The notes beneath the pieces were generated by a model. It was not told the DNA's origin. It saw only the letters and a list, made by a program, of their open reading frames with translations, and did no database searches. 64,000 nt of DNA from Anaerocolumna chitinilytica (GTDB lineage Bacteria; Bacillota; Clostridia; Lachnospirales; Lachnospiraceae): positions 2,732,001 to 2,796,000 of the forward strand of contig NZ_AP023368.1 in NCBI RefSeq assembly GCF_014218355.1. Direction: 5' to 3'. This document shows positions 49,827 through 52,234 of this stretch, in pieces (positions within the stretch are counted from its first letter, which is position 1; every line of letters starts with the position of its first letter). The translations under genes were made by a program, and so were the position numbers.

Positions 49827-49855
49827 TTGACAAAGAGTGGAAGTATATTTATACT
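49827..49855 (+). promoter_or_regulatory. Promoter of the nifH-nifB-nifX-like operon
   Basis: TTGACA at 49827-49832, a 17-nt spacer, and TATACT at 49850-49855. A sigma-A-type site, not the sigma-54 (GG-N10-GC) type used by many nif genes. Confidence 0.75.
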
Positions 49856-49942
49856 ATCAATAAACATATAATCATATATAAATAGTATGATATCTAACCC
49901 TGAATATTGTTTTATGCACTTGTAAGTTGACTAGACAACTAG

Positions 49943-49986
49943 AGACTTCAGAAAACATACCCTGTTTTCTGAGGTCTTTTTCTTTT
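49943..49986 (+). terminator. Attenuator-like intrinsic terminator in the nifH-like leader
   Basis: A 15-bp stem with one G:U pair (AGACTTCAGAAAACA at 49943-49957, TGTTTTCTGAGGTCT at 49963-49977), a five-base loop, then TTTTTCTTTTC. It lies between the promoter and the nifH-like gene, 50 nt before the start codon. Since no gene precedes it on this strand, it must act on the leader transcript. Confidence 0.85.
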
Positions 49987-50035: not shown

Positions 50036-50914
50036 ATGGCAAAAAAGGCTAAACAGATTGCAATCTATGGAAAAGGTGGTATTGGCAAGTCTACAACCAC
50101 ATCTAATATTTCTGCCGCATTGGCAGAGATGGGCTATAAGGTGATGCAATTTGGCTGTGATCCGAAAAGTGATTCTACAAACACGCTAAGAAATGGAAAA
50201 TACATACCAACAGTATTAGATTCTTTAAGAGAAAAAAGTACAGTGAAAGCTACCGACGTAATATTTGAAGGGTTTCGGGGGATTTATTGTGTAGAAGCAG
50301 GAGGTCCTGCACCGGGTGTTGGCTGTGCAGGAAGAGGCATTATTACGGCAGTTGAATTATTTAAACAACAGAAAACCTTTGAAGAGCTGGAATTGGACTA
50401 TGTAATCTATGATGTACTGGGGGATGTAGTCTGCGGGGGCTTTGCAGTTCCGATTAGGGAGGGTATAGCAGAACATGTTTTTACGGTATCTTCTGCTGAT
50501 TTTATGTCTGTTTACGCTTCTAATAACTTGTTTAAAGGCATCTATAAGTATTCCAATTCCGGAGGAGCGCTCCTGGGAGGAGTGATTGCGAATTCTATTA
50601 ATGCTCCTTATGCAAAAGAAATCATTGATGATTTTGTTAAACAGACAAATACCCGGGTAGTGGAATATGTACCCCGTTCTGTTACGGTGACCCAAAGTGA
50701 GCTTCAGGGTAAGACTACCATTGAAGCGGCACCAAAATCTGCTCAGGCGGATGTTTATCGTTCTCTTGCAAGTAAAATAGCGGCACATACCACATCTCAA
50801 ATCCCGGCACCACTGGCCACCAATGAATTAAGAGAATGGGCTGCCAGGTGGGGGGACTATCTCCTGGCATTAGAGACAGGAACGGTCAGAACAGAAAATG
50901 CAGTGAATCTATAG
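50036..50914 (+). CDS. nifH: NifH-family iron protein (nitrogenase reductase-like), orphan operon
   Basis: An ATP-dependent reductase of the NifH family, 292 aa. Seen: P-loop GKGGIGKS at 12-19, switch I CDPKSDST, VGCAGRG with Cys97 and the Arg100 used for ADP-ribosylation in classic NifH, and DVLGDVVCGGFA with Cys133. The two Cys residues would bind the bridging [4Fe-4S] cluster of a homodimer. The C-terminal third differs from classic NifH (FTVSSADFMSVYASNN, EWAARWGDYLL). ATG 50036 follows GGAGG; upstream frame extension is unsupported. It is the first gene of an operon with nifB-like and nifX-like genes but no nifDK. It may reduce a nitrogenase-like partner elsewhere, or serve cofactor maturation. 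Confidence 0.9.
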   Translation: MAKKAKQIAIYGKGGIGKSTTTSNISAALAEMGYKVMQFGCDPKSDSTNTLRNGKYIPTVLDSLREKSTVKATDVIFEGFRGIYCVEAGGPAPGVGCAGRGIITAVELFKQQKTFEELELDYVIYDVLGDVVCGGFAVPIREGIAEHVFTVSSADFMSVYASNNLFKGIYKYSNSGGALLGGVIANSINAPYAKEIIDDFVKQTNTRVVEYVPRSVTVTQSELQGKTTIEAAPKSAQADVYRSLASKIAAHTTSQIPAPLATNELREWAARWGDYLLALETGTVRTENAVNL

Positions 50915-50940
50915 CCTATCATGTTATTAAGGGGGTAAGT

Positions 50941-51810
50941 ATGGATAATTACATGAATTTAAAGAATTCCCATCCCTGTTTTGGAGGTAATAAAATCAAT
51001 AAGGGCCGTATTCATCTGCCGGTCAGTCCTTCTTGTAACATTGCCTGTAAATTTTGCGACAGAAAATTCAATGAAACAGAAGATAGGCCGGGTGTTGCAA
51101 AGGCAATACTAAAGGAAGAGGAAGCCATAGAGACTATTAGAAGAGCATTGCAGCTTTGTCCGGAGATTTCAGTGGCAGGAATAGCGGGTCCCGGTGATAC
51201 ACTTGCTTCACCCCATGCATTGAATACATTTAGAACTTTGGCGGTCGAATTCCCGGATCTGCTCAAATGTATGAGCACCAACGGGCTGTTACTCTATGAA
51301 ATGGCTGAGGAGATTATCACTGTTGGTATTGACAGCCTCACTGTTACCGTAAATGCTGTCGATCCGGTTATTGAAGCAAATCTTTGCTCTGGAATCAGTT
51401 ATCATGGAAGGTTCTATGAAGGGGAAGAAGGAGCAGCTATACTTATCACTAACCAATTAAAGGGAATAAGAAAAGTAGCCAGTTCAGGAATCACCGTTAA
51501 AGTGAATACGGTCTTAGTACCGGGAATAAATGATGAACATATTGAAGCAATTGCAAAAGCTGTCAGCGAAGCCGGGGCTTCAATATATAATATTATCCCG
51601 CTTATCCCCCAACATGCTTTAAAGGCTGCTAAAGCTCCAGGTTGTGCGGAGATTGAGAGGGCCAGGCAACAAGCTGGTAAGTATATAGATGTTTTCAGGC
51701 ATTGCCAAAGATGCCGAGCAGATGCGGTCGGAATACCGGGAGTAAAGGAATATGCCGAGCAGATATACTTTGGCAAATTGACTGCAAAGGAGACTTTTTC
51801 TCATGGTTAA
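50941..51810 (+). CDS. nifB: NifB-like radical SAM protein
   Basis: A radical SAM enzyme of 289 aa resembling the core domain of NifB, which fuses two [4Fe-4S] clusters and inserts carbon to make NifB-co. Seen: HPCF near residue 11, RIHLPVSPSCNIACKFC with Cys32, Cys36 and Cys39, DRPGVA at 48-53, VAGIAGPGDTLA, a TVTVNAVDP segment, and a C-terminal CQRCRADAVG. These are NifB landmarks. The additional Cys that in classic NifB follows the third SAM Cys (R-K-Y/F-D-C) is absent: the sequence reads RKFNETEDRPG. There is no fused NifX domain; a separate nifX-like gene follows. The ribosome binding site GGGGG precedes ATG 50941. Confidence 0.88.
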   Translation: MDNYMNLKNSHPCFGGNKINKGRIHLPVSPSCNIACKFCDRKFNETEDRPGVAKAILKEEEAIETIRRALQLCPEISVAGIAGPGDTLASPHALNTFRTLAVEFPDLLKCMSTNGLLLYEMAEEIITVGIDSLTVTVNAVDPVIEANLCSGISYHGRFYEGEEGAAILITNQLKGIRKVASSGITVKVNTVLVPGINDEHIEAIAKAVSEAGASIYNIIPLIPQHALKAAKAPGCAEIERARQQAGKYIDVFRHCQRCRADAVGIPGVKEYAEQIYFGKLTAKETFSHG

Positions 51811-51834
51811 TGGTTAAAAGAAGAAGGGGGCATA

Positions 51835-52185
51835 ATGTTATATAAAATCGCAGTAGCAAGCAGTGATGGAAAAGTTATTAATCAGCATTTTGGAAGAACA
51901 GAGACTTTTTACATCAGTGAAGTAAATGACAATCGGTCATATCATTTATTGGAAGAACGAAGGATAAGAGCAATCTGTATGGGAGGGGAACATGATGCCA
52001 GTGCATTAAATACAATAGCAGATAAACTTGCGGATTGTAAATATGTCTTGGTAAGCCAGATTGGGCCTGGTGCAGAATATGTATTAAATCAAAAAGGTGT
52101 TACGGTATTGGTAATAAGAGATTATTTTGATAATGCCATACAAAAATTGATGGAATATGATGAGAAAGTAAATTTCATATATTAA
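51835..52185 (+). CDS. NifX/NafY-like iron-molybdenum cofactor-binding domain protein
   Basis: A 116-aa protein of the dinitrogenase iron-molybdenum cofactor family (NifX, NafY, NifB C-terminal domain). Seen: KIAVASSDGKVINQHFGRTE, the hallmark N-terminal segment with the likely ligand His in NQHFG, and a mixed alpha/beta rest. It should bind or carry an iron-sulfur cofactor such as NifB-co. In many NifB proteins this domain is fused to the C terminus; here it is a separate gene directly behind nifB, supporting a shared pathway. GAAGGGGGC precedes the ATG, and a terminator follows. Confidence 0.9.
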   Translation: MLYKIAVASSDGKVINQHFGRTETFYISEVNDNRSYHLLEERRIRAICMGGEHDASALNTIADKLADCKYVLVSQIGPGAEYVLNQKGVTVLVIRDYFDNAIQKLMEYDEKVNFIY

Positions 52186-52194
52186 TTTTAGTAC

Positions 52195-52234
52195 TTAAAA
52201 GGTTGTTACCCAATTTAGAGTAACAACCTTTTAA
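52195..52234. terminator. Terminator between the nifX-like and CBS genes
   Basis: A perfect 15-bp stem (TTAAAAGGTTGTTAC at 52195-52209, GTAACAACCTTTTAA at 52220-52234). Both outer sides are T-rich within the stem; it can serve both converging genes. Confidence 0.75.

Follow-up and report, generated by a model that had tools for sequence, protein, structure and literature searches.

Methylthio-alkane reductase (Mar), which converts methylthio compounds to methanethiol and a hydrocarbon, is described as the only nitrogenase-like (Nfl) enzyme found with large nitrogenase cofactors (PMC12552129); [Fe8S9C] clusters are also mentioned there in the methyl-coenzyme M reductase activation complex. According to the same source, Mar yields methanethiol for methionine, its [Fe8S9C] cluster is ligated by Cys270 and His429, and Arg428 beside His429 is a proposed hallmark (PMC12552129). 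Isethionate reductase (Isr) is a group IV enzyme for sulfonate, with a radical S-adenosylmethionine (SAM) partner, IsrB, that is BciD-like rather than NifB-like and a D subunit without Cys275 and two of the three P-cluster cysteines (PMC11423573). Nitrogenase-like pairs with a Cys275 equivalent often adjoin cysteine synthase or O-acetylhomoserine sulfhydrylase, and a sulfur role has been suggested for them (Dos Santos et al. 2012, PMC3464626), while a 2026 spirochete paper describes group IV genes in which nifB and nifH are separate from a nifK and nifD that stand with cysteine synthase (PMC13067680). Here we analysed a 64,000-nucleotide stretch of the Anaerocolumna chitinilytica genome (assembly GCF_014218355.1, contig NZ_AP023368.1, positions 2,732,001 to 2,796,000 of the forward strand; 'the window') that carries a compact operon of nifH-, nifB- and nifX-like genes, hereafter H, B and X. 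It is likely that these encode the Fe protein, maturase and carrier of one Mar-like [Fe8S9C] organic-sulfur reductase split in two, whose component-1 genes, D and K, lie elsewhere in the genome. The assignment of the apparent orphan to an uncharacterised sister clade of Mar is well supported; substrate, product and regulation are predictions. The three genes, in window coordinates, are as follows.

50036-50914, + strand: nifH-like Fe protein gene of the marH type (H), 292 aa, predicted electron donor to component 1
50941-51810, + strand: nifB/marB-type radical SAM gene (B), 289 aa, predicted to synthesize the [Fe8S9C] precursor
51835-52185, + strand: nifX-like gene (X), 116 aa, predicted carrier of the cofactor precursor

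The tight arrangement noted in a preliminary description of this DNA was borne out: all three frames are intact and on one strand, with gaps of 26 bp (H-B) and 24 bp (B-X) and a purine-rich ribosome-binding-like stretch ahead of each gene. H scored 406 bits against the nifH model TIGR01287 (cut-off 394) and retains the P-loop and both cluster cysteines (97 and 133). B matched TIGR01290 with 262 bits (E 6.6e-78), under the curated cut-off of 344; its C terminus stops short of the NifX domain, and X is a separate protein (64.5 bits to PF02579). The radical SAM CxxxCxxC motif of B and four more cysteines were present in 43/43 alignment rows covering them. One further cysteine of classic NifB occurs in 12 of the 43 rows, which look like classic NifB, and is missing in 31, including B of the window. 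We take this residue to be a K1-cluster ligand of methanogen NifB; if so, the NifB-like proteins of these systems would have one ligand fewer for the precursor cluster.

The preliminary description had called the operon an orphan, with a component-1 partner elsewhere or else a nitrogenase-like system with another substrate or a cofactor pathway with another use. The genome, a single contig of 5,621,910 bases (99.99% complete), contains six matches to PF00148, none of which falls in the window: D, K, E and N(-B) of a classic nif cluster and one extra pair. The classic cluster occupies C1:769657-778397 (PF00148 matches at C1:771376-777062, with the NifB part extending to 778397), and the extra K/D pair lies at C1:3233450-3236195, ~450 kb from H-B-X. 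'Orphan' thus holds within the window but not for the genome, and two of the proposed outcomes apply together, with a component-1 partner elsewhere in the genome and, most likely, a nitrogenase-like system for another substrate. Strong NifH matches numbered two in the genome (NifH of the classic cluster and H), as did strong NifB matches (the NifN-B fusion of the classic cluster and B), and the extra K/D pair is the only component 1 without an adjacent NifH or NifB.

Since a classic nif cluster exists, H-B-X could in principle be spare NifH, NifB and NifX for the classic nitrogenase, an explanation to which we give hardly any credence. NifH is already encoded in that cluster, as is a NifN-B fusion carrying a NifX domain, H is just 48.7% identical to the classic NifH of the same genome (269 aligned residues), and nifH-like and nifD-like genes of Paenibacillus sabinae failed to complement nif mutants (PMC4246453). 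The two systems share Pfam families and ligand cysteines but differ in the H group, in the loop around His442 and in the possession by the classic cluster of its own NifEN-B, and they are 2 Mb apart. The trio is therefore no ordinary member of a complete nif cluster, although such a cluster is present.

The distant pair belongs to an operon (locus L017, minus strand) with the order OscA/DUF2292-like gene, leader hairpin, pyridoxamine-oxidase-like gene, leader hairpin, K, D, cysteine synthase (CysK), NifX-like gene and ATP-binding cassette (ABC) permease, ATPase and binding protein. CysK exceeded the cut-off of TIGR01139 (441.9 bits). The OscA-like protein exceeded that of PF10055 but reached just 27.9 bits against NCBIfam sulfur_OscA (cut-off 85). 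The ABC genes are of the sulfonate/nitrate/taurine kind (SsuABC-like); no named sulfonate family among the listed NCBIfam models was matched above its curated cut-off by any of the proteins. A Cys275-type component 1 beside cysteine synthase is the arrangement described by Dos Santos et al. (PMC3464626), so the link of such pairs to this enzyme is already published and the substrate of the present pair is a prediction. That study took the cofactor ligands as incomplete (no His442); here, the equivalent of MarD His429 is invariant in the alignment, and H and B partners and a shared leader are identified. CfbCD comprises H and D without K, whereas K adjoins D here.

Relatives of the D/K pair, abbreviated DK below, link it to H and B. 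A scan of a species-genome collection with an alignment of D yielded 170 relatives; we retained the 80 best and fetched their loci (3 to 21 kb). In 20 of the 80 loci (11 of the 39 that have full flanks), H and B were both found together with D, and in 61 CysK was no more than 1.2 kb from D or K; many of the misses for H/B or CysK reflect short contigs. Anaerocolumna aminovalerica (L035) and a second Anaerocolumna (L057) have all components in one cluster, in the order OscA, B, X, H, K, D, CysK, X, SsuC, SsuB, SsuA. Among 23 DK-carrying genomes picked from the 80, H was found in all, being at least 78% identical to H of the window in 18 and represented by just a classic-like H (49-54%) in five. 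The split arrangement is not unique to A. chitinilytica: its closest relatives, Clostridium sp. KNHs205 (L139) and an Anaerocolumna metagenome-assembled genome (MAG; L140), have the H-B-X order and the same leader, and neither H nor B occurs within 10 kb of their DK. The same three-gene set, for which other Lachnospiraceae were to be searched, is thus found in KNHs205 and, with a shortened B, in L140.

The two operons of A. chitinilytica also share control elements. In the window, the signals on either side of the trio are as follows:

49827-49855, + strand: sigma-A-like promoter TTGACA-N17-TATACT, 11/12 consensus matches
49864-49890, + strand: operator-like element ACATATAAT(n)CATATATnnnnAGTATGA, also at the DK promoter
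49926-49946, + strand: leader hairpin with asymmetric internal loop, a proposed antiterminator; covariance-model match, E ≤4e-4
49941-49979, + strand: attenuator, an intrinsic terminator of 17 pairs with a 5-base loop and a T tail that overlaps the leader hairpin
~52197-52232, + strand: closing intrinsic terminator, stem ~13 bp, T tail; read from the sequence by eye

The promoter was the best of 11 promoter-like sites in a scan (8.7 expected by shuffling), and the DK operon has an identical TTGACA-N17-TATACT promoter. The operator-like element (27-28 bases) has two exact matches in the 5.6-Mb genome, one after each of the two promoters, against none in the reversed control; since the pattern was derived from these two sites, only its absence elsewhere counts as a test. 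A covariance model of the leader gave three genome matches of at least 29.7 bits, with the next at 17.2; of the three, one precedes H and the others belong to the DK operon. This search scored 150 of 1,904 first-look candidates, and two of the three strong matches were in the alignment of the model. A fourth, imperfect copy with two mismatches (C1:5311722-5311742, L032) is absent from the covariance-model matches and was dropped. We infer from elimination, linkage in relatives, co-occurrence and shared control that H-B-X serves the distant DK.

H is a MarH-type Fe protein outside the classic NifH group, as judged from bit scores, trees and identity. Among sequences of solved structures, its best match was Rhodospirillum rubrum MarH (9fmg_D; 486.7 bits, residues 2-282), compared to 281.9 bits for Clostridium pasteurianum NifH, and its identity to MarH was 76.5% over 281 aligned residues. 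The remark that the C-terminal third is unlike classic NifH agrees with the alignment to MarH, which covers residues 2-282 of 292. In a quick tree search, H grouped with H of KNHs205 and the Anaerocolumna MAG, then with that of L141, L142 and L145 (support 98); H is followed by MarD-like genes in L141 and L142 and by CysK and a K-like gene in L145. B, in a search of the same kind, grouped with B proteins from the DK clusters of Lachnospiraceae and Oscillospiraceae (support 98) and not with B beside Mar-type genes. The simplest reading of these placements is that H-B-X is a chimeric operon, probably combining a Mar-lineage Fe protein with maturase genes of the DK system. Separately, five Lachnospiraceae loci (L053-L056 and L088, several from rumen by their titles) have the same type of DK cluster with a classic-like NifH 52-54% identical to H of the window, which suggests repeated exchange of the Fe protein.

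The affinity of H for the H of the Mar-like operons L141 and L142, together with the shortened B frame in L140, would also fit a remnant: the trio as what is left of a Mar operon after loss of marDK, idle or reused, with the distant DK independent of it. We regard this as highly improbable, given that B sides with the DK clusters, that all three frames are intact and that the trio and its leader recur in KNHs205. Moreover, without the trio, DK would be left with just the classic H and NifN-B.

A different possibility is that the distant DK is methylthio-alkane reductase itself, with H-B-X as the rest of a marBHDK set. Besides the MarH-type H, this is favored by the best solved relatives of D and K, which are MarD (205 bits) and MarK (266 bits; 9d9u/9fmg), and by conservation of the cofactor ligands. 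From the fetched loci, 82 proteins of the D type, counting own D, and 15 of the Mar type were aligned to R. rubrum MarD; each was labeled by the higher score to own D or to MarD, a label that is hence not independent of sequence. The three P-cluster cysteines and the equivalents of Cys270 and His429 were kept in all 82 D-type proteins. However, Arg428 was missing and Phe199 replaced by Tyr in 82/82, and Trp195 was retained in 6/82 and His375 in 38/82, whereas all four residues were present in 15/15 Mar-type rows. In a second alignment (A3; 78 sequences, 10 of them Mar-type), Cys60, Cys85, Cys152, Cys286 and His435 of own D were invariant. At the His442 position of loop II of classic NifD, own D has Phe and own NifD the classic loop (alignment read by eye). 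The P-cluster cysteines of own K (Cys12, 37 and 102) are present and were kept in 74, 74 and 75 of 76 K-type rows, and an extra cysteine (own Cys57) occurred in 74/76 K-type but 0/18 MarK-type rows.

Phylogeny separated the two types in the same way. In a D tree of 100 rows, the 82 D-type proteins formed one group (support 96) and 16 Mar-type proteins another (98), with own NifD and NifE outside; this was a quick search with support from the Shimodaira-Hasegawa-like approximate likelihood-ratio test alone and with long-branch warnings. Members of the D/K clade in the tree come from Bacillota, Spirochaetota, Myxococcota and Thermodesulfobacteriota. Thirteen of the 80 loci carry a Mar-type D beside this D type, which also argues against a Mar identity for the pair. 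Seven loci (L059, L060, L062, L092, L099, L106 and L112) have at least two different nitrogenase-like DK pairs, with the Mar type and this type side by side. Based on these residues and trees, the identification of the pair with Mar is unlikely, and the D/K clade appears to be an uncharacterised sister of Mar whose ligands could hold the same cofactor. In sum, the A. chitinilytica system resembles R. rubrum MarBHDK (9fmg/9d9u) in its Fe protein, its NifB-like radical SAM protein (assessed by TIGR01290, with R. rubrum MarB itself outside the comparison) and its P-cluster and cofactor ligands. It differs in the separate D group, the altered residues around the ligands, extra conserved cysteines (own D 46 and own K 57), CysK in the operon, the split into two places and the two NifX-like genes.

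Several results weigh against a split DK reductase served by H-B-X. Identity of D to MarD is 31.7%, barely over the 29.5% to own NifD, and an AlphaFold2 model of D built from 14 sequences was poor (predicted local distance difference test 62) and was not used further. H of the window did not group with the in-cluster H of the Anaerocolumna loci L035, L036 and L057. Outside the trio carriers, the H proteins closest to it include those beside MarD-like genes in L141 and L142, so it may be an Fe protein built for Mar. The B frame of L140 (~805-1434) encodes just 209 aa, so the gene may be broken or misassembled there. Among 24 leader matches in other genomes of the class Clostridia, 14 were read by eye as lying at phage, DUF4430/Ig-like or other genes. 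Finally, a PF01077 (sulfite reductase) protein is present in 18 of the 23 relatives with DK, which weakens the argument for sulfide given below and makes sulfite a possible product in those relatives; the five without it are three MAGs (L054, L056 and L058) and two isolates by their titles (L073 and L088).

Taking H-B-X and DK as one reductase, a pathway can be proposed by analogy with Mar. B would build the [Fe8S9C] precursor cluster and X would carry it, for insertion into D, where Cys286 and His435 would hold it. H would dock on DK, and ATP-driven electrons would pass via the P-cluster to the [Fe8S9C] site. The SsuABC-type transporter encoded with DK would import an organic sulfur compound, whose C-S bond would be cleaved at the cluster, and the cysteine synthase of the DK operon would capture the released sulfur as cysteine. 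Both operons would be co-induced, probably at low sulfur, via the shared promoter element and the attenuator hairpin.

The sulfur role is suggested by the neighbors of DK, namely CysK, the OscA-like protein and the sulfonate-type ABC transporter. CysK uses sulfide rather than methanethiol, which also speaks against a Mar identity for the pair. As CysK fixes sulfide and Mar makes methanethiol, sulfide, or a thiol converted to sulfide, is the favored product; on balance, we put a product at the sulfide level, rather than methanethiol or sulfite, at somewhat below even odds. No match to PF01077 was found in the genome, while a control detected matches in 11 of 14 genomes, and this argues against sulfite as a useful product in A. 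chitinilytica itself. The same absence counts against an isethionate-reductase system releasing sulfite, which would suit the sulfonate-type transporter adjoining DK. Isr likewise combines a radical SAM partner with an Ssu-type transporter in sulfonate assimilation. Nonetheless, IsrB is unrelated to NifB and IsrD is without the cofactor ligands (PMC11423573), whereas B is NifB-type and D has Cys275 and the P-cluster cysteines. Membership of Isr is refuted on these grounds, and only a very small chance is left to an Isr-like reaction.

A broader proposal, which we advance as speculative and rather doubtful, is that the D/K clade may constitute a further [Fe8S9C] functional class beside Mar. It would reduce imported sulfonate or another organosulfur compound fully to sulfide (for sulfonate, an eight-electron reduction) and let anaerobes without sulfite reductase use it. 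Fe proteins and maturases would have been exchanged with Mar, and control would involve an antiterminator hairpin not in Rfam. Independently of this proposal, a sister clade with the same ligands and altered active-site surroundings would widen the known [Fe8S9C] chemistry and bear on the origin of nitrogenase, and the main reading provides a concrete, testable claim on sulfur acquisition by some anaerobes. It also illustrates that a stray nifH in such a genome is no evidence of nitrogen fixation. A search of the open-access literature, with subscription literature mostly outside it, revealed no paper characterising the DK clade or the leader before these genes.

An explicit-rule script identified 42 leader hairpins, spread over 29 of 83 sources, compared to one in reversed sequences, and missed one of the three copies of the genome (L017 12310-12330). 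The next gene was B, K or pyridoxamine-oxidase-like (seven each), CysK or SsuC (three each), MarD (two), H (one), unclassified (11) or none (one). Eight of the 11 unclassified genes were annotated, as NMT1-type binding protein (two), FtsX-type permease, URO-D, aminotransferase, DUF1847, Fer4_16 and alcohol dehydrogenase. In the 39 distinct hairpins, a lower stem of 3 bp and an upper stem of 4 bp are separated by a GA/A internal loop, with pairing in 98.5% of cells versus 86.6% when shuffled; the upper stem is built into the search rule and so is not independent, while the 5' strand of the lower stem is free and its 3' strand partly fixed. The middle pair of the lower stem is CG in 28, UA in seven and UG in four and is never unpaired, and the outer pair fails in 4/39; further pair types showed no excess (11 versus 11.4 shuffled).

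The bases on the 3' side of the lower stem double as the first strand of the terminator, so the two structures are mutually exclusive, which is an antiterminator layout. When folded in isolation, each of the three leaders of the genome gives the terminator; the small hairpin occurs in one of their minimum-energy folds, the lower stem in none of them. The attenuator region has a fold z-score of -4.5, and its predicted fold is likewise the terminator rather than the small hairpin. These folds fit termination by default, with the alternative, antiterminated state as a proposal. The ribonucleic antiterminators of the BglG/LicT type similarly have a small hairpin with an asymmetric internal loop overlapping an intrinsic terminator; the present leader differs in having no Rfam match at gathering score. 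No Rfam family reached that score in the window, L017 or L018; matches at a loose threshold were judged to be chance, and bglG-cis-reg at E = 3 is no evidence. LoaP was rejected as the leader binder, as the genome has a single NusG-domain match and LoaP binds another hairpin type (UNCG; PMC12691694). A 2010 study of premature terminators mentions, for bacilli, an attenuator that a sulfonate ABC operon has in common with an unknown gene (PMC2965389).

Across 196 Clostridia-class genomes, 16 had leader matches, 27 in total including the three of A. chitinilytica. By eye, 10 of the 24 others were at nitrogenase-like or sulfur genes. H or NifB lies directly 3' of the leader in L121, L131, L132, L134 and L136, and the other neighbors are an SsuC-like gene (L130), a Cys/Met pyridoxal-phosphate enzyme (L122), URO-D (L119), an OscA-like end (L124) and an ABC ATPase after NifH (L120). 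Leader matches outside sulfur genes point to the hairpin as a more general device. In L132 and L134, the genes behind the hairpin are classic-looking NifB genes, which suggests that leader control reaches nitrogen-fixation maturation genes too. The leader stands 3' of cobalamin riboswitches (RF00174) in L123, L125, L129 and L133 (~position 1500; in L133 also near 2769), before DUF4430 or unnamed surface-like genes. A near-identical hairpin precedes phage-like genes in L114 (HNHc_6 nuclease by Pfam), L116 and L118 (both by eye).

As for the 3' end of the operon, the closing terminator described earlier is visible by eye as a stem and T tail but was not listed by the terminator scan, which found three terminators against 1.7 expected; we attribute the omission to a loop longer than the scan allows.

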